A stretch of 21,293 nt of DNA from the IMG/VR virus record IMGVR_UViG_3300035034_000419, positions 1 through 21,293 of that record; one strand, 5' to 3'. How positions within the stretch are numbered: the first letter of the stretch is position 1; every line of letters begins with the position of its first letter. The position numbers were made by a program, and so were the translations under genes. The DNA comes from a virus. Positions 1 through 13,210 of the stretch are shown piece by piece. Below the pieces are notes generated by a model that was not told where the DNA came from, searched no databases, and was given only the letters and a program-made list of their open reading frames with translations.

Positions 1-1295
1 CAAATGGTTTAACAAAGGTATTTAAGAGAGTAATAACAACATCTGATATTAAACCATTTTTGGAAATAATCTTACCAGATGATAATATTATATCGGTTGA
101 TTCTGTTATAACACTAGATGGTACAAATTTTGTAACTACACCTACTTATGATAAATTTTTGAATTTAAATAATAAATGGTTTGAAATGGATGCTTTGGCT
201 GAAGATAAGATTTTTATTGAGGATTCTTCTTCAATATCAGACAATGCTGGTGTTAGACCAGGTAAATGGATTAAAACATCCAAAAAATTCATAAGAGAAT
301 ATACTGATTTAGGTTTTACAAAAGTTATTTTTGGTTCTGGAACTCAAGATGTTAGTAGTCTTTCAGATTTTGATACAAATCCATCATTGGTTAATCAAAT
401 TGGTAATTTTATTAATAATATGTCATTAGGTATAACACCTAAAGCAAATACTACTATGTTTATTAAATACAGAGTTGGTGGTGGTGCTGATACAAATCTA
501 GGACCAAACACTATAAATAGTGTTGGTATTTTAAATATGGATGTTAACGGTCCAAATAATATAATTAATCAAAGTGTTAAAGGTTCATTAAAGGTTAATA
601 ATTTATTCCCAGCTATTGGTGGTAAGAATAGTCCTAGTATTGAGGAAGTTAGAAATATGGTTAGATATAATTTTTCAGCTCAAAATAGAGCGGTAACGAT
701 TAAAGACTATCAAACTAAAATAGCACAAATACCAGGTAAATTTGGAGCTCCATTTAGAAATGGTGTATTTGAAGAGCAAAACAAAGTTAAGGTGTATATC
801 TTAAGTTTAGATTCCAACAGCAAATTAAGTAATCAATTAACAAGTACACTTAAACAAAATATAAGTAATTATTTAGCTGACTATAGAATGTTAAACGATT
901 ATGTTCAAATTGCTGATGGTAGAATCATTAATTTATCATTAGAAATAGATTTGATGGTAGATAAAAAAGTTTCACAATCACAAATCCAAGCACAAGTTAT
1001 TCAAGAAGTTACAAATTTCTTTGATATAAATAAATTTGATATGGGTGATAATATTTATATCTCTCCTTTGATGGAAACTATAAATAATGTAGGTGGTGTA
1101 CTTAACTTGATTGATTTAAGAGTTTATAATAAAGTTGGTAACGGCCTTTATAGTATGAATGAGATTTCACAAATATACGCTGATACACAATCTAGAATGA
1201 TAGACCTAAGTGATAATAATACATTATTCGGTGAAGCTACATCTATGTTTGAAATTAAGTTACCAAATAAAGATATTTTGGTTAGGGTTAAATAA
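1..1295 (+). CDS. Baseplate wedge protein, T4 gp6 / baseplate-J type (5' end missing)
   Basis: The reading frame is open from position 3 to the TAA at 1293-1295, giving 430 residues with no stop before the left edge. A TTG at position 60 could be taken as a start, but in-frame codons upstream (NGLTKVFKR...) look like normal coding sequence, so the gene is cut by the window. Two blocks resemble the gp6/Baseplate_J family: a glycine-rich stretch near 465-510 (YRVGGGADTNLGPNT) and the segment near 680-750 (RAVTIKDYQTKIAQIPGKFG), followed by an alpha/beta C-terminal domain ending GNGLY. In T4, gp6 (660 aa) dimers form the inner ring of the baseplate and join neighbouring wedges; that role is carried over by inference. 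Long uncharacterised structural genes follow directly. The family call is from motif recognition, not a search. Confidence 0.72.
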   Translation, partial: NGLTKVFKRVITTSDIKPFLEIILPDDNIISVDSVITLDGTNFVTTPTYDKFLNLNNKWFEMDALAEDKIFIEDSSSISDNAGVRPGKWIKTSKKFIREYTDLGFTKVIFGSGTQDVSSLSDFDTNPSLVNQIGNFINNMSLGITPKANTTMFIKYRVGGGADTNLGPNTINSVGILNMDVNGPNNIINQSVKGSLKVNNLFPAIGGKNSPSIEEVRNMVRYNFSAQNRAVTIKDYQTKIAQIPGKFGAPFRNGVFEEQNKVKVYILSLDSNSKLSNQLTSTLKQNISNYLADYRMLNDYVQIADGRIINLSLEIDLMVDKKVSQSQIQAQVIQEVTNFFDINKFDMGDNIYISPLMETINNVGGVLNLIDLRVYNKVGNGLYSMNEISQIYADTQSRMIDLSDNNTLFGEATSMFEIKLPNKDILVRVK

Positions 1296-1340: not shown

Positions 1341-1676
1341 ATGGGTTGTAATTGTAAAAAAGAAAGTGTTTCAGAAAACGATGATAATGTTAAATCATTT
1401 AAGTTCTCAATATCTAAAATAATTGAATATACTGTAAGGGTATTTGGATTTTTAGTGTCATTAATTATAACACCAGTTATTTTACTTATTGTTATTTGGT
1501 TTATGTTTAAAATGTTAGTCTTAAATCAAAACTTTGACTTAAAGGAAACATTTAAGAAATACTTAAAAGTTGGTGATAGTGATAATAACGATGATGATGA
1601 TGATGACGATTACGATGATGACGATGAAGATACCTTAATGATGGAGGTTGATACCATAAGAAGAGAAAAAGATTAA
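1341..1676 (+). CDS. Small single-span membrane protein with N-terminal MGCNC and Asp-rich tail
   Basis: I do not recognise this 111-residue protein. It starts MGCNCKK, with two cysteines in the first five residues, then has a short polar region and one strongly hydrophobic segment at about residues 34-60 (FGFLVSLIITPVILLIVIWF) that should span a membrane. The C-terminal half is soluble and very acidic: residues 84-97 are almost all Asp (nt 1590-1631, GAT/GAC repeats), followed by a mixed charged end. It sits between the wedge gene and the 1411-aa structural gene in the same orientation, so it is probably co-expressed late. Possible roles are a membrane-associated assembly factor, a holin-like or superinfection protein, or a minor virion part; nothing decides among them. 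The acidic tail differs from the usual basic holin tail. The leader is A-rich (AAATAAAAAAAAT before ATG) with no Shine-Dalgarno motif. Confidence 0.75.
   Translation: MGCNCKKESVSENDDNVKSFKFSISKIIEYTVRVFGFLVSLIITPVILLIVIWFMFKMLVLNQNFDLKETFKKYLKVGDSDNNDDDDDDDYDDDDEDTLMMEVDTIRREKD
1590..1631 (+). repeat. GAT/GAC codon repeat (poly-Asp)
   Basis: Inside the 111-aa gene, 14 codons are GAT or GAC apart from one TAC and one GAA. Such triplet repeats can change copy number by replication slippage without breaking the frame. Acidic runs can also bind divalent cations, but that is speculative here. Confidence 0.7.
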
Positions 1677-1683
1677 ATAATAT

Positions 1684-4600
1684 ATGTCAGAAACAATTAG
1701 AATAAGAACAACACCAGATGGTGTTGATAAATACCTTAAAGTTAAAGTAGAACAAGAATTTGATTTTATTGAGACACTATCTATGAAGATAACTCAAGAA
1801 GAAGCTTATAGAAATTTTTGTTCAGATTATGGTGTTGTAGTAGGTAGGGTTAATATCAACTCTGGATTCGGTGTTCCGAATGCTAAGGTTAGTATTTTTA
1901 TACCTATAGACGATATTGATAAAGAAGATTCTGAGATAAAAGGTTTTTACCCTTATGAAATTATTTCTGATTCAAATTCTGACGGTATTAGATATAATCT
2001 ATTACCAAAAACAAACGAGACTGATAATGAATGTTTCACACCAATAGGCACGTTTCCATCTAAACGAGAAATATTAGATAATTCAGAAATAGATGACATT
2101 TATTGTAAGTATTATAAATTTACAACAACAACAAATCATGCTGGAGATTTTATGTTGTTCGGTGTACCATTGGGTAATTATACAGTACATGTAGATGCTG
2201 ATATATCCGATATAGGTATAGCATCACAAAGACCTTATGATATGATTTCACAAGGTACACCAGAAAAAATATTTGAATCACCTACCAAATTCAAGGGTGG
2301 TACTAATTTAGATAAACTTGTACAAATAAAATCGGCAAATATAGGTGTAAATGTGCAACCTTTTTGGGGTGATTCTGAAACATGTGAGATTGGTATTAAT
2401 AGATTAGATATAAACTTAAACTATAATATTACACCTTCAGCTATTTTTGTTGGTAGTATTTTTGGAGATTCGGAAAAACACAGTGTTAATAAACAATGTA
2501 GACCTAGAAATAAAATGGGTGAACTATGTGACCAAGTTACCTCTCAAGGTAGTATTAATATGATTAGAGAGACTATTGATGGTAATATTGAAGATTATGA
2601 CGTTGAAGGTGGTAGAGTAATTGACGATGATGGAAATTGGTCATATCAAATACCAATGAATTTAGATTATGTAGTAACAAATGAGTTTGGTGATTTAATC
2701 CCTTCAGATAACCCAAATATAGGTATTCCAACTAAATCAAATGTTAGATTTAAAGTAGGAATGGATGAAACTGGTGGTGAAGGTAGATTAAGGACTAGAG
2801 CTAAATTTTTAGTTCCTCACAACCCTAACAATAGTAGTGAAATTGATTATGAATTTGGTCCTAAGACTAAAAAAGGTAGTTTAAGGTCTTTATATTGGAA
2901 TAAGATTTATTCGGTATCAAGTTTCATTCCAAGGTATCAAGGTAATAAATTAAATAATAGAGCATTTACTGGTATTAAAAATGTTGATGATTGCGTTGGT
3001 GATAAAACACCGTTTCCATATAATAAAATATCTAGTGATTCTAATCCTATATTTTTTATTATATGTTTATTAATGCAGATTATAGCTGCTATAATAACAG
3101 TTATAAATACTATTTTAATCCCAGTACTTAATGTTGTTATGACAATACTTAATGCAGTATTAAAAGTTATAGGTAAAATAATATATGCTATTGGTGGAAT
3201 AATTTCGGCATTCACAAAAAAAAAACGATGTGATTTCTCAATATCAAATAATGTCCCATGTGATGATTTTGATGATATAATAGACTATATACCTTGTATT
3301 TATATTGCTTGTCCAAGTGATGGTAATCAAAATTTTGCACCAGGTTGTAGAAAAGATAGTAAAGGTTTAGATACAGCATATGAAAAAATTGGATGTACTG
3401 ACTGTATACATTATCCAGGTGATGAGGATGGACACACATCATTAAATACTGGTCTATCTGATTGTATAGCAGCATCATTAGCTGACACGCTTAATGTATA
3501 TAGTTTAGATTTTTATAACGACTGGATTAATGGTTCTTTATATAGTTACTTACTTAAATATAAGAAAAAGAAAAGGGGTAAAGAAAAATTCTGTGAATAT
3601 GATTGTAATGGTTTCGATGGTGAACCTACATATACTGGTGTAGATGGTAATAATAATGATATTGGTGATAATAGATGTCATAATAATTTCTTATTAGATA
3701 CTGGATACGATGATGGTGATGATTCTCAGAAATTAACATATGATAGTGGTCGTATTAGTGAGGGATTAATTAAAAAAGTTGAAACCTTCTTTAAGGGTAA
3801 AAAAGTGAGTGAAGAATTTTACTATGCTGCATCCACACATTATGCAAACTATAAATTATTTGCAACTGAAATAATTAATTTAGGTTCAGTGTTAAATTGT
3901 GATTGGCAAGGTATTCCCAAATTACAAGAAAATTTAATACCAACAACTTATAAAATTCCACCAATAATAGCTGAATTAGAAGATGATGATATTAGTAAAA
4001 AAATAGTTAGTGGTATGGTAGATATAGGTGGTGATTCTTCTTTTGGTATAATATTCGACATAAACTGCCTAGGTGTACATTCTAATTATAGACAAATATT
4101 AAATATTAGACACCAATGTGAATTCGGTGTAGATTTAGATGAAGAATTAGAATTTGGTGGTAATACTATAGGTATTAAAGGTTTTTTAGATTTTACAAAT
4201 ATTGATGATGATAGTGGTAAACTATTTAGAGATGTATTTTTTGGTTTAAATCAAAACCCAAATACATCAACACTTACATTACCATCTAACGGTTATTCTA
4301 CAAATTTTAATACTGTAAGTTTAGGGACATATGATTTTAATAGTTCAAGTCAAAATGGTGTTGATTACGTTAATTTTAGAGGTTTTGGTGGTAAAAATGT
4401 ATTTACACAACCAAAACATTCTTATTTCTTCTATTTTGGTGTAAAACCAGGTTCTTCAGCTATTGATAAGATGAATCAAAAGTTTTTTACGACTTGTAAA
4501 CCATTAGTATCACTAGAATTTAATATAATTGCAACATCAGTTGCTGCAACACAAGTTTTATCTACTGGTTCAATAACATTTCAAATTGTTTCTGGTGTAG

Positions 4601-5919
4601 GACCATTTACATACACTGTTAGTGGGCCAAGTAATTATATTAATAACAGTGATACTACAACAAATGGTTCATTAATAGTTAATTTAAGTGGTTTAGAGGT
4701 TGGTTTATATACGATAACATGTATTGATAATACTGGACGTGAGATATCACAAGAAATAACTGTAAACGGAGCACCAAAACTATACGCTATAGCATCAATT
4801 AGTAAAAATTGTTCATCAGAGCAAGCTAATGATGGTGAAATAACTATAAACTCAATTGGTGGTGGTTCTGGAACATGGACATACCAACTATTTAGAAGTA
4901 ACGGTACAACAGTAAATGCATCACCATCACCAATAAATATAACACCTTTAATTATAGGTGGTTTATCTAAGGATATTGATTCAGATGGTTCAACAACACC
5001 ATACTATGGTTATAAAATAGTTATTAATGATAGCAATGGTGAAACAATAACAATAAACGATTTAATATTAGATGCACCACTTGCAATGGTTGCAACATCA
5101 GTTGTGGTAAATAATGTTTGTTACAATAGTAAAAATGGTTCAATCGCTATAACTATAAATGGTGGTACAAGACCATATACTTTTACGACTCAATCACCAC
5201 CAGATACTTTAGAGGAAACACCACTCGGAAATTATGCTAGTTTCCGAAACTTATCATCTGGTTCATACACAACAACGGTTGTTGATTCTTTAGGTGAAAC
5301 GACATCGGTAATTAATATAGTTACAACAAATAACCCAAAGTTAATGATTCAAAATGCAGATTCATCATTGATGAATAAACAATGTAGTACTACTAATCAT
5401 TCAATACCTTTTATTGTACCAACTGGTGCTATAAATGGTAAAGTATATGTTAGCTATTCATTTGATGATGAAAATAATTTCTCTACTTTACTTGAATTAG
5501 ATTATGTAAATTCTTCAACACCGATGTATATAACAATACCTAAAGATTTGTTTGATAATTATATAAATATAAAAATTAATAATGCTGATGGTACTTGTAG
5601 TAGTAACCCAATAGTAATAAGATTATCAGATATAGAATTACCTCCAGTATCTTTATCTACAAATACAACTGGTATTTTAGGTAGTAAAGTAATTTATGGT
5701 AATGATGTAAGATTTAAATTTAATATTAGTCATCTAGAAACTGGATATACTAGTAGATTACCATACAACCTATCCTACACAGTAAACGGTGGTCCAATTC
5801 AAACAGCTACAATAACATCAAATAGACAATTAATTATTGGTGATGTTTCAGATACTGTAGCCAACATAAATATGACAATCACAGATAAATTTGGTTGTAC
5901 TTACACAACAAATATGTAA
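1684..5919 (+). CDS. Large virion protein (probable baseplate/tail) with hydrophobic core segment and SprB/Ig-like repeats
   Basis: A 1411-residue protein of mosaic structure. About residues 45-180 resemble a carboxypeptidase-regulatory (CnaB-like) fold: a VVVGRVNINSGFGVPNAKV strand pair and, after an insertion, AGDFMLFGVPLGNYTVHVDA. Residues 456-510 are an unbroken hydrophobic stretch, followed by KKKRC encoded by ten consecutive A bases. About 515-870 is cysteine-rich and contains NDWINGSLYSYLLKYKKK. Residues 944-1218 hold three roughly 86-100-residue units of SprB/PKD-like type (for example GSIAITINGGTRPYTFT), and the rest is beta-rich. It lies two genes after the gp6-like gene, where T4 has gp7, another long wedge protein, so a baseplate-periphery or host-contact role is likely but inferred. 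No signal peptide is seen at MSETIRIRTT. It starts 7 nt after the previous stop. Confidence 0.6.
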   Translation: MSETIRIRTTPDGVDKYLKVKVEQEFDFIETLSMKITQEEAYRNFCSDYGVVVGRVNINSGFGVPNAKVSIFIPIDDIDKEDSEIKGFYPYEIISDSNSDGIRYNLLPKTNETDNECFTPIGTFPSKREILDNSEIDDIYCKYYKFTTTTNHAGDFMLFGVPLGNYTVHVDADISDIGIASQRPYDMISQGTPEKIFESPTKFKGGTNLDKLVQIKSANIGVNVQPFWGDSETCEIGINRLDINLNYNITPSAIFVGSIFGDSEKHSVNKQCRPRNKMGELCDQVTSQGSINMIRETIDGNIEDYDVEGGRVIDDDGNWSYQIPMNLDYVVTNEFGDLIPSDNPNIGIPTKSNVRFKVGMDETGGEGRLRTRAKFLVPHNPNNSSEIDYEFGPKTKKGSLRSLYWNKIYSVSSFIPRYQGNKLNNRAFTGIKNVDDCVGDKTPFPYNKISSDSNPIFFIICLLMQIIAAIITVINTILIPVLNVVMTILNAVLKVIGKIIYAIGGIISAFTKKKRCDFSISNNVPCDDFDDIIDYIPCIYIACPSDGNQNFAPGCRKDSKGLDTAYEKIGCTDCIHYPGDEDGHTSLNTGLSDCIAASLADTLNVYSLDFYNDWINGSLYSYLLKYKKKKRGKEKFCEYDCNGFDGEPTYTGVDGNNNDIGDNRCHNNFLLDTGYDDGDDSQKLTYDSGRISEGLIKKVETFFKGKKVSEEFYYAASTHYANYKLFATEIINLGSVLNCDWQGIPKLQENLIPTTYKIPPIIAELEDDDISKKIVSGMVDIGGDSSFGIIFDINCLGVHSNYRQILNIRHQCEFGVDLDEELEFGGNTIGIKGFLDFTNIDDDSGKLFRDVFFGLNQNPNTSTLTLPSNGYSTNFNTVSLGTYDFNSSSQNGVDYVNFRGFGGKNVFTQPKHSYFFYFGVKPGSSAIDKMNQKFFTTCKPLVSLEFNIIATSVAATQVLSTGSITFQIVSGVGPFTYTVSGPSNYINNSDTTTNGSLIVNLSGLEVGLYTITCIDNTGREISQEITVNGAPKLYAIASISKNCSSEQANDGEITINSIGGGSGTWTYQLFRSNGTTVNASPSPINITPLIIGGLSKDIDSDGSTTPYYGYKIVINDSNGETITINDLILDAPLAMVATSVVVNNVCYNSKNGSIAITINGGTRPYTFTTQSPPDTLEETPLGNYASFRNLSSGSYTTTVVDSLGETTSVINIVTTNNPKLMIQNADSSLMNKQCSTTNHSIPFIVPTGAINGKVYVSYSFDDENNFSTLLELDYVNSSTPMYITIPKDLFDNYINIKINNADGTCSSNPIVIRLSDIELPPVSLSTNTTGILGSKVIYGNDVRFKFNISHLETGYTSRLPYNLSYTVNGGPIQTATITSNRQLIIGDVSDTVANINMTITDKFGCTYTTNM
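3049..3213 (+). other. 55-residue hydrophobic segment inside the 1411-aa protein
   Basis: Codons 456-510 of the large virion protein read almost only Ile, Leu, Val, Phe, Ala, Met and Gly, with a few Asn/Thr/Lys. It begins PIFFIICLLMQIIAA and ends YAIGGIISAF. This is long enough for two membrane spans or an amphipathic hairpin and is bordered by basic residues (KKKR). Such segments are unusual in soluble tail proteins. Confidence 0.7.
3216..3225 (+). repeat. Ten-A homopolymer in coding sequence
   Basis: Positions 3216-3225 are ten consecutive A bases spelling the end of a Thr codon and three Lys codons, directly after the hydrophobic segment. A one-base insertion leads to ACG ATG TGA (stop within three codons). 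A one-base deletion reaches TAA after about twenty codons. Either change would truncate the protein near residue 516-532. Confidence 0.9.
4513..5340 (+). repeat. Three SprB/Ig-like protein repeats
   Basis: Three units begin near nt 4513, 4771 and 5074 (residues 944, 1030 and 1131). Each has the layout [N-terminal strand]...G-I-x-x-x-GG/G-x-G-P-[FWY]-T-[FY]...G-L/S-x-x-G-x-Y-x-[IV]-x-x-x-D-x-x-G. The third (VCYNSKNGSIAITINGGT) is the clearest match to the SprB repeat. They are diverged at DNA level, so they are old duplications, not recent ones. Confidence 0.6.
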
Positions 5920-10483: not shown

Positions 10484-13210
10484 ATGGCAAAAAAGATAAA
10501 AGTAGTTGGATATTCAAAAGAAACAGTTTATAATGGTGGTGTATCATATAGAAATTTTAGTCCAAATTTAGTAGGAACACAATTAGCTAGTGATGAAGGT
10601 ACACCTTTATTTACAATGGGTAATTTTGCCGTTACCACTAATTTAGACCCTAAATCTAATAAAAACTATATTACCGATAAGTTTTCAGAATTCGTAACGT
10701 TAGACACGCTTAAATTAACAACTGAGACAACTACAGAATTATTAAAGAATAATACTAGTGTTGTTTTAAATTTAGATAAATCTAATTTAAAACGTTATGC
10801 TTTATTTGGTTCAATGGTTGACTTTATCCGTGTATCTTTAGAGGACATAATAACAAAATGGCCAGCTTCGTTATATTTGGACCCAGTTGCTTTTTATAAT
10901 AATCAACAATTAAATGGTTATACATATGAAAACTATGAATATGACTCAATTGAAGATACTTCTACCTTTAAAATTAACACAACTTTTATTGAAAATAACT
11001 ACCAAGTTAATTATTTAACAAATGGTACAATCATTGATACATTTAATGAATCTAATGATTTGAGAAATTTAACGATAAATTATTTATCATATTGTGTATT
11101 TAAAGACAATAAAGAATATGATATATTAGGTTTCACTGGTTCAACTTATGAAAAAGCGGATTACATATATTTCAAAGCAAAAGGTAATCCATTTAGTGGT
11201 TTAACAACAAATGGAAGTATATTTTACCATATTAAACCACTTAAAATAATTGGTGAAACATTCTTTAATGCATTACCAGATTTTGAGAATTATTTGTTAA
11301 ATCGTAAATCTATTCCTTTATATAATTCTACATTTAATTTTCCAATCAGAACTGATAACGGTATGTTAATGTATACTTCAAAATCACTTACTTGGCCAGT
11401 AAGTGATGGGTATAATATTGATTTTAGTACACCAGAATATAATACATTTGCAACAGAACTATTAGATATAGCAACAAACTATGATTTAACGGAAACTGGG
11501 TTAATGAAACGATTTTTAGTTTCTGAATCTATTTCAGATTTTGATACGACTCCAGTACATTTAGACCCTTTACACCAAGATACAACAACTGGTCAAAAAG
11601 TTAATAAAACTTTAAATATATATGGTAGAGCATTCGATGATGTTAATAAATTCATTGAAGGTATATCATTTGCACATGTTGTAACATATGATAAAAAAGA
11701 CAATGCACCAGATAAATTTTTAAAAGATTTATCTAAAGTATTTGGTTGGGATTCAATCCCAACATTAGAAGAAAATGATTTAATATCTAATTATGTTTCA
11801 ACATCAAACCCAAGTTTCTCTGGTGAATCAGTTGGATTAACAGCAGCTGAAGCAGATATTGAACTATGGAGAAGACTAATATTAAACTCACCTTGGATTT
11901 GGAAATCTAAAGGTGCTAGGAAATCTATCGAGTTTTTACTTAATTTTATAGGTGTACCACAAGGGTTAATCACGTTCAATGAGCATATATACAAAGCTAA
12001 TGGTCCATTAGATATGGATTTATTCATAGAGGCATTAGAATTAAATGGTTTAGATATAGACTTAAGTAAATATCCTATAGATGAAGATGGTTATCCTAAA
12101 CCATTACCAGATACAAACGATATGTATTTCCAAAACCACGGTCTATGGTTTAGAGAAACAGCTGGTACTGGTTCTACTGTAGATATCACAACTGGTAATA
12201 ATCCACATGTTGGTTCTTATGATGGTGGTTCAAAATACATTAATCAATTTAAATCAATAATTACTGACTTTAAACCAATAACTATAACCTCGACAACAGT
12301 TAATATATTAACAAATAATTTATTTACAAATTATAATCTAGGTGATATAACAAATTATAATGGTGATACATATGTAGATGTTAAATCATTAGATGGTTCA
12401 AATGTTGGTGATTATGTTGTTTATAATTCAAGTATAATAACTGACCCTATACCTCAAGAAGTGTTAACACCTTGTGGTTGTGATACTGATGGTGAAGATG
12501 ATGCTTTAAGCATTTGTATTGAAACAAAAACAAAACCAAATAAGGTAAGCGATTGTAAAGGATTTAGTCATACACCAACAATTGATAGAACTAGTGGTTT
12601 TTATGTTTTTAGACTTTACAAAACTGATATAAATGATAATATTGTAACTGACGAGGGTTCAATAATAACTTCTTTTATAAATAAAGAATGTTGTAAAACT
12701 ATAGGTGGTACTTCAGCTTATTTAGATTCAGATACGCTGGGTAATATATCTAGTAATACTAGGTTAATTAGTAGTGGTTATGTTTGTTGTACAACTAATA
12801 AATGTGGTTGTAATGTTGCATGTAAATGGTCATTAAGACCACTCTTAACAAACGAATCAACTGGTAAATCTTACTATGGTGAAATAAATGAACCATTGGA
12901 AATTCCAATCAACAGTGGTAACTTATTTTTAGATTTTAATATGTTTAAAGGTAAAGGTGGTAAAGCTGTAACAACAAGTGATGGTTCTAATTGTATGGTT
13001 AATTATACTATACCAGTTAAAATCACTGACCCATATACAAACGAAGTTGGTTTCGGTTGTAAATTGACTAATTTGGGTAGAGAAGATTTAGCCTTGGGTG
13101 ATGAAAGTTTTATGAATAAGATGTTAACTGAGAAAATTAGTGGTTCGTTAGGTTGTTGTGTTACTAAAAAAGACGAAACTAAAACATATGTTAAAAGTTT
13201 ATACGAATAA
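10484..13210 (+). CDS. Large tail/baseplate protein with P2 gpI-like motif and Cys-rich C-terminus
   Basis: A 908-residue protein. Residues 457-492 contain ELWRRLILNSPWIWKSKGAR, then KSIEFLLNFIGVP. This has the layout of the short conserved block in P2 gpI-type tail proteins and many large-phage tail proteins (basic-R-x-L-I-x-x-[AS]-P, then K-x-K-G-[TA], then I-x-x-[LF]-L, then G-x-P). In P2, gpI is a baseplate wedge component and a partner of the tail fibre. The N-terminal 450 residues are beta-rich. Cysteines are strikingly skewed: one in the first 660 residues and 15 in the last 245 (from C664), including CGC, ECC, VCC and KCGC groups, which suggests metal binding or a disulfide-free tight core. 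No signal peptide or membrane span. A baseplate-wedge/fibre-connector role is a reasonable guess. Confidence 0.55.
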   Translation: MAKKIKVVGYSKETVYNGGVSYRNFSPNLVGTQLASDEGTPLFTMGNFAVTTNLDPKSNKNYITDKFSEFVTLDTLKLTTETTTELLKNNTSVVLNLDKSNLKRYALFGSMVDFIRVSLEDIITKWPASLYLDPVAFYNNQQLNGYTYENYEYDSIEDTSTFKINTTFIENNYQVNYLTNGTIIDTFNESNDLRNLTINYLSYCVFKDNKEYDILGFTGSTYEKADYIYFKAKGNPFSGLTTNGSIFYHIKPLKIIGETFFNALPDFENYLLNRKSIPLYNSTFNFPIRTDNGMLMYTSKSLTWPVSDGYNIDFSTPEYNTFATELLDIATNYDLTETGLMKRFLVSESISDFDTTPVHLDPLHQDTTTGQKVNKTLNIYGRAFDDVNKFIEGISFAHVVTYDKKDNAPDKFLKDLSKVFGWDSIPTLEENDLISNYVSTSNPSFSGESVGLTAAEADIELWRRLILNSPWIWKSKGARKSIEFLLNFIGVPQGLITFNEHIYKANGPLDMDLFIEALELNGLDIDLSKYPIDEDGYPKPLPDTNDMYFQNHGLWFRETAGTGSTVDITTGNNPHVGSYDGGSKYINQFKSIITDFKPITITSTTVNILTNNLFTNYNLGDITNYNGDTYVDVKSLDGSNVGDYVVYNSSIITDPIPQEVLTPCGCDTDGEDDALSICIETKTKPNKVSDCKGFSHTPTIDRTSGFYVFRLYKTDINDNIVTDEGSIITSFINKECCKTIGGTSAYLDSDTLGNISSNTRLISSGYVCCTTNKCGCNVACKWSLRPLLTNESTGKSYYGEINEPLEIPINSGNLFLDFNMFKGKGGKAVTTSDGSNCMVNYTIPVKITDPYTNEVGFGCKLTNLGREDLALGDESFMNKMLTEKISGSLGCCVTKKDETKTYVKSLYE

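Follow-up and report, generated by a model that had tools for sequence, protein, structure and literature searches.

The window analysed here is a whole virus record of 21,293 bases and ends where the record ends. Its nucleotides 3049-3213 (+) translate as IFFIICLLMQIIAAIITVINTILIPVLNVVMTILNAVLKVIGKIIYAIGGIISAF, residues 456-510 of a 1411-aa open reading frame (ORF; 1684-5919) that we infer from its gene neighbourhood to encode a virion protein. The question raised by this locus is what so long a hydrophobic segment does in the midst of such a protein. The features used in answering it are listed below.

3..1295, +, gp6-like baseplate wedge protein (Baseplate_J), cut by the window edge (phrog_219, E 3.5e-18; Pfam PF04865)
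1341..1676, +, 111-aa partner candidate with MGCNCK N-terminus, one transmembrane helix and acidic tail (hydropathy, small-gene survey)
1440..1502, +, transmembrane helix of the partner candidate, best 21-residue window, residues 34-54 (-2.77 kcal/mol, simplified Hessa scale)
1684..5919, +, 1411-aa baseplate-cluster protein bearing the hydrophobic helix (ORF list; Pfam, PHROG and IMG/VR searches)
1816..2433, +, first beta-sandwich, carboxypeptidase-regulatory/CnaB-like, residues 45-250 (VIA-align, best Z 10.2)
2440..3033, +, second, possibly transthyretin-like beta-sandwich, part before the insert, residues 253-450 (Z 6.7, weak)
3046..3216, +, predicted polar-striped hydrophobic helix, residues 455-511 (AlphaFold2; stripe statistics)
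3217..3495, +, variable Cys-containing part of the insert, residues 512-604 (alignment, AlphaFold2)
3496..3888, +, remainder of the possible second sandwich, residues 605-735, starting with the DFYNDWINGxLY block (alignment, AlphaFold2, VIA-align)
3508..3534, +, DFYNDWING motif, residues 609-617, right-hand border of the removable insert (alignment A1)
4519..5916, +, C-terminal region, residues 946-1411, with an SprB repeat at 1138-1168 (Pfam PF13573, E 3e-8)
10484..13210, +, 908-aa wedge protein in the gp7 position (phmmer against three related wedge operons)

The hydrophobic segment and its polar stripe

A, V, I, L, M, F, W, C, G, Y and T account for 47 of the 55 residues, and the only charged residues are K494 and K498. 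The mean Kyte-Doolittle value of the segment, 2.17, lies above the maxima of all 20,000 shuffles of the same protein (0.84 +/- 0.18, highest 1.97), which excludes chance composition as its source. Hydropathy was scored across the window for the 14 main forward ORFs, leaving out antisense and overlapping ORFs. A 19-residue window above 1.5 was found in the 1411-aa ORF and the 111-aa ORF at 1341-1676 only, the next ORF reaching 1.47. The hydrophobic segment is therefore confirmed as real.

Conservation was examined in an alignment of 59 homologues, kept after removal of those more than 92% identical and of the truncated L061. The earlier note on this DNA had asked whether hydrophobicity is retained in homologues, and it is: the hydrophobic maximum of the protein sits at this segment in 59/59 non-redundant sequences, the long helix being missing in two further relatives, L114 and L167, described below. 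The hydrophobic stretch ranges from 23 to 70 residues, with a median of 45; the shortest belongs to L045, where the region was cut by the alignment and the protein stays hydrophobic further on. On the simplified Hessa scale the best 21-residue window falls below 0 kcal/mol in 39 of the 59 homologues and below 2 in 51. The best windows of the remaining eight are weaker, at 2.3-6.7 kcal/mol; six of these belong to a divergent clade with a shorter and more amphipathic helix (L065, L067, L068, L070, L076 and L078), and the other two are L043 and L045, the latter an artefact of the region cut.

Polar residues recur along the segment in a regular pattern. N475 is present in 59/59 sequences, C461 in 55/59, N483 in 44/55 and N490 in 38/50, the denominator being the number of sequences with a residue at that position. 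The polar columns (465, 469, 472, 475/476, 480, 483, 487, 490, 494, 497/498, 501/502, 504/505 and 508/509) are spaced 3 or 4 residues apart. The family-mean helical moment peaks at 100 degrees, and none of 5000 shuffles was as high. The best of seven angles for the polar columns was 99 degrees per residue, at which successive thirds of the segment are in phase within 7 degrees, compared with a 29-degree drift at 100; none of 20,000 random column sets was as clustered at 99 degrees. As judged from the aligned sequences, the stripe favours a single uninterrupted helix whose polar face runs straight. A two-pass hairpin is disfavoured by the continuous phase of the stripe and by the single predicted helix, and the difference between about 99 degrees and the 102.9 of a left-handed heptad coiled coil speaks against a classical coiled coil of that type. 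The description of the segment in the earlier note as nearly pure aliphatic and aromatic thus needs amending. It is strongly hydrophobic and aliphatic, but aromatic residues are scarce (F457, F458, Y501 and F510), and because of the polar stripe it is not purely aliphatic.

Structure prediction, also proposed in the earlier note, was carried out on the monomer. An AlphaFold2 model of residues 1-945 from 53 sequences (mean pLDDT 85.2, pTM 0.82) is confident and mainly beta, and within it residues 455-511 are predicted as a single continuous helix. The pLDDT of the helix blocks is 88-91 over residues 451-490, 84 over 491-500 and 73 over 501-510. The VIA-align match to transthyretin (Z 6.7, weak and suggestive only) covers model residues 253-735 and so spans both sides of the helix, which may therefore be an insert within a sandwich loop. 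In the rest of the insert C543 and C594 are each conserved in 57 of the 58 sequences with a residue at the position, and beyond it D609, F610, Y611, N612, W614 and G617 are invariant in alignment A1.

Fold searches with the 945-residue model returned generic beta-sandwich proteins from the PDB and one clear homologue, A0A8S5LA66, from BFVD. The family profile matched only an unrelated lyase among PDB chains at E up to 1 (E 0.33). The SprB repeat (PF13573) is the sole Pfam match over cut-off in the 1411-aa protein, a weak CarboxypepD_reg match at residues 146-173 (E 0.021) falling below it, and no PHROG family matched with an E of 0.001 or less.

The locus and its relatives

A large gene soon after gp6 recalls T4 gp7, and the earlier note had remarked that such a segment is not expected of gp7-type wedge proteins. 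Searches against the wedge operons of Mel-JY01, LR756508 and Immutovirus indicate that this comparison is inapplicable. With phmmer, the 908-aa ORF matched all three (E 1.5e-6, 5.4e-5 and 5.6e-4 respectively, in a small database consisting of the ORFs of those loci), whereas the 1411-aa protein gave nothing significant against their gp7-position proteins (best E 0.2). An hmmsearch with alignment A1 against the three operons likewise found nothing above the inclusion threshold, the best E of 0.065 being to another ORF. The gp7-position proteins of these operons have no comparable hydrophobic segment, their best windows lying at 8.0-9.0 kcal/mol. Assignment of the 1411-aa protein as the gp7-position wedge protein is rejected on these searches, and on sequence similarity the 908-aa ORF appears to be the better candidate for that position. 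It also carries WKSKGARKSIEFL, a motif that we take to recall tail protein I. The 1411-aa protein appears to be a separate addition to the wedge cluster, and the contrast with gp7 is therefore no puzzle. No PDB sequence match was obtained for either the 1411-aa or the 908-aa family, and distance may hide a relation of either to T4 gp7.

Relatives are abundant in metagenomes. At least 592 IMG/VR stretches encode a relative of the 1411-aa protein, on contigs of up to 380 kb; for comparison, giant phages of freshwater Bacteroidetes are stated, in the part of the source consulted, to reach 331 kb (PMC9723584). No match was found by tblastn in 50,697 annotated phage records, a set that may omit records very near the window, whether the query was the 1411-aa protein (E up to 1e-5) or a 1000-residue portion of a divergent relative (E up to 1). 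Seven GTDB genomes contain a relative. Four are labelled Bacteroidota, Bacteroidales or Paludibacteraceae and the other three Mycoplasmatota, Clostridiales and Wolfebacteria; these contigs may be phage DNA binned with the host. The SprB repeat also suggests Bacteroidota hosts.

The order of genes in one relative, L059, is a 128-aa ORF (gp25-like by position), a gp6-like gene, the small gene and the large gene. Beyond the reach of the 21-kb window, relatives contain a contractile-tailed structural cluster with sheath, tube and wedge genes. Of 11 giant records, eight matched the sheath C-terminal domain at E <= 0.001, six of them over cut-off, and three had no match. In the 369-kb record G018, ORFs for sheath, tube and tape measure lie about 24-34 kb before this locus. 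Plus-strand ORFs of 75 aa or more were scored over 80 kb around the tail genes of G018. From the sheath to the gp7-position gene, the large and small genes contain the only windows below 2 kcal/mol; another ORF with such a window lies further downstream, at 205403. Each of 16 large relative-holding records has one full-length gene. A second, partial relative is present at 268821-270044 of G022, the 380-kb record of L050, as a 702-aa open frame covering the N-terminal 350 positions only.

The small upstream gene and loci without the helix

The 111-aa ORF immediately upstream of the large gene prompted a survey of 186 loci (L001-L163 and L167-L189), of which 11 were unscorable (L037, L060, L061, L116, L148, L154, L162, L163, L187, L188 and L189). 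The counts refer to loci rather than independent phages, as some contigs occur twice, and L081 corresponds to the window. A relaxed search (length 45-260 aa, within 1200 nt upstream, energy below 6) found a small gene of like design at 160 of the 175 scorable loci. With a stricter motif the small gene was present at 148 of 160 loci, comprising 141 with a window below 2 kcal/mol and seven with a weak one only. In 99 of 103 non-redundant cases the small ORF lies within 30 nt upstream of the large gene, and 95 of the 103 small ORFs have an N-terminus of the M(G/A/S)C-x(1-2)-C type. Alignment of 47 examples shows C3 without exception and C5 with a conservation of at least 90%. The small proteins carry one hydrophobic helix, which has no stripe at 100 degrees. 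The acidic tail is not general, roughly one third of the 103 having five or fewer acidic residues in the last 45.

Two variant arrangements were seen. In L049 and L108 a 305-aa ORF with a zinc-ribbon-like N-terminus, by eye possibly a transposase, lies between gp6 and the small gene, and in L171 and L184 a 301-aa ORF splits the small gene from the large gene.

Some relatives lack the long helix. From PFPYN to FYNDWING the window has 162 residues, L114 has 13 and L167 has 36. A short hydrophobic relic is retained in L167, and FYNDWING is kept in both relatives. These two loci come from different metagenomes and are 80% identical in alignment A3. An AlphaFold2 model of L167 has a mean pLDDT of 81.7 and a pTM of 0.84, with matching strands flanking the gap; the junction itself is poor (pLDDT 51-56) and the alignment rows were mostly helix-bearing relatives. 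The scaffold does not appear, from this model, to need the long helix, and because the model stays confident the helix does not look like scaffold core. The buried trimer core suggested in the earlier note is accordingly disfavoured by the L114 and L167 deletions, as far as monomer models go, although a core within an oligomer is possible.

The same loci also lack the small gene. L114, L167, L187 and L188 have neither a long helix nor a small gene at the locus, and the ORF judged by eye to be gp6-like ends 4-15 nt before the large ORF (15 nt in both L114 and L167). No relative of the small gene was found elsewhere in these four records, which are 5.7, 19.5, 134 and 21 kb long, the first two being short. 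L160, L162 and L163 also have neither element, but in other or unclear surroundings; L163 is uncertain because its contig stops, with the ORF still open, shortly past the expected start of the site. L162, L163, L187 and L188 were judged in this way although they are outside the 175 scorable loci. Among those 175 there was no case of a small gene without a hydrophobic insert. The converse, an insert without a nearby small gene, was found at 12 loci (L141, L150, L153, L156, L177-L183 and L186); the tally of helix without small gene is 13 if L167, whose relic scored as helix-bearing, is included. In the divergent L177-L183, L186 and L156, which have no small gene nearby, the insert is sometimes long or multi-pass. 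This divergent group might have acquired additional helices that take the place of the partner. No convincing homologue of the small protein was found elsewhere in 17 helix-less or partner-less records: weak partial matches occurred in G017 (E 0.0019) and G005 (E 0.05), and the positive controls G018, G019 and G020 were matched in all three cases.

In a tree of 117 rows, with L162, L163 and L187 entered as helix-less, L114 with its deletion falls within a group of helix-bearing relatives. L167 and L188 had been dropped by the tree filters (fewer than 200 columns or more than 85% identical). There are two independent co-absence contrasts on well supported branches and four on all branches, too few for significance. 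The co-absence of helix and small gene is therefore suggestive and not significant. Two DNA-pattern scans for further helix-less relatives yielded no new cases over the gap lengths they covered, those between the two scans excluded. The first found none and missed L114 as well, its codons differing from the pattern; the second recovered the contig of L167 again (L204), together with L202 and L203, which have both helix and small gene.

Possible roles of the helix

The explanation that we tentatively prefer, at somewhat under an even chance, is that giant contractile-tailed phages have a membrane-active helix module inserted in a baseplate protein built mainly of beta-sandwiches. Several copies of the protein would stay shielded within the baseplate until the tail reaches the cell. 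The helices would then enter a host membrane, outer or inner, with their hydrophobic faces toward lipid or one another and the Asn/Thr/Lys stripe inward, and would there anchor the baseplate or line a passage. The small protein, whose own helix resembles an ordinary membrane anchor, might hold or chaperone the long helix in assembly, or join it within the membrane. The length of the helix, some 85 A for 57 residues, counts against such a module, being far more than one bilayer requires. A strict partnership is opposed by the 12 insert-only loci, where the insert is partly longer or less regular. In a more specific and quite unlikely version, the striped helices and those of the CxC proteins would form a two-component barrel in the host membrane, with a shared metal or disulfide link through cysteines conserved in each protein, and this barrel would anchor the tail or carry DNA. 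If true, this would amount to a removable two-gene membrane-entry module separate from the tape measure.

The retained hydrophobicity, the neighbouring gene and the predicted dispensability of the helix for the scaffold fit both membrane roles raised in the earlier note, insertion device and assembly anchor. As an anchor, the helix and the small membrane protein would hold the large protein at the host inner membrane during baseplate construction, and the helix would play no part in infection. This we consider doubtful. The helix of the small protein, unstriped at 100 degrees and strong enough for ordinary insertion (-2.77 kcal/mol), suits such a role, as does the joint absence of small gene and long helix in L114 and L167; yet about 20 residues suffice for an anchor, whereas the median length of the hydrophobic stretch is 45 and its polar stripe is conserved, and the loci that hold an insert with no small gene nearby count against it too. 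(T4 gp28, considered as a precedent for membrane-bound assembly, was set aside, the portion of PMC3004832 consulted treating it as a hub or needle-tip candidate.) The helices could also pack against each other or round the hub inside the baseplate and never touch lipid. Such packing is feasible for a long helix with a single stripe, hydrophobicity is only moderate in divergent members, and the helix belongs to a confident model, but we judge a purely protein-protein bundle unlikely: the scaffold is predicted to be intact without the long helix, the neighbouring membrane-protein gene is given no obvious reason, and the stripe angle departs from that of a heptad coiled coil. Finally, two adjacent proteins with membrane-type segments might be a non-virion pair acting in the membrane of the infected host, with a role such as exclusion or lysis timing. 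That is very improbable, with both genes flanked in the wedge cluster by the gp6-like gene and the gp7-position gene, and the remainder of the large protein composed of beta-sandwich and SprB repeat.

The preferred reading, an inserted membrane-active module, has parallels in other systems, and in our best reading the helix would work like the phi29 gp9 L-loop or the RcGTA iris domain, by analogy of principle. In phi29 the L-loops of gp9 are described as leaving the knob to form an alpha-helix barrel that is hydrophobic outside and has a channel of about 32 A (PMC6542822). Both proteins carry a hydrophobic element within a beta-rich protein, as predicted for the 1411-aa protein, whose tail location is presumed. 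The scored sub-ranges of the gp9 L-loops (presumed loop limits) are, however, far less hydrophobic, at 9-19 kcal/mol, and rich in Gly, Ala and Ser, and the phi29 tail is short and non-contractile. Our fold searches with the 945-residue model listed no phi29 gp9, nor did the family profile match it among PDB chains at E up to 1. The iris/penetration domain of RcGTA is, according to excerpts of PMC7296036, a baseplate helix proposed to line a pore for crossing the outer membrane, so that in both cases a membrane role is proposed for a helix of a baseplate protein. The RcGTA element consists of N-terminal residues 1-46 forming two short helices in a trimer (same excerpts), whereas the helix of the 1411-aa protein is internal (455-511), about 57 residues long and found in a contractile-tailed lineage. 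Wza provides a further parallel, the amphipathic helices of several chains forming an outer-membrane pore in the part of PMC11845990 consulted. It differs in being a cellular capsule exporter, and the resemblance is of principle only, homology having been compared by PDB sequence search.

A conserved, removable helix and its neighbouring gene make a defined gene pair, with natural deletions for testing, in a large uncultured phage family. To our knowledge, the passage of DNA through the last membrane by contractile-tailed phages is still poorly settled. Tape-measure proteins or short loops are among the published candidates for this step. The principle of a membrane-entering helix is known from the sources cited, and what appears to be new is a long striped helix in a contractile baseplate cluster together with a neighbouring membrane-protein gene; the literature searched, mainly titles and the beginnings of abstracts, contained no report of such a combination.

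Predicted transmembrane helices, presumed to form a conduit, are described for the tape measures of diffocin, TP901-1 and JBD30 in the sections consulted of PMC10996793 and PMC11445458. The present case differs in that the tape measure of the relative G018 is a separate ORF, matching phrog_167 at 7.7e-18; the 1411-aa protein, without a PHROG match of its own, is therefore rejected as a tape-measure protein. An independent tape-measure membrane channel is possible, since the G018 tape-measure ORF has its own Gly/Ala-rich hydrophobic stretch (3.0 kcal/mol). Beside this tape measure lies a 1341-aa ORF (L199, 4915-8937) whose OmpA-like domain match in Pfam (E 3e-6) narrowly passes the cut-off.
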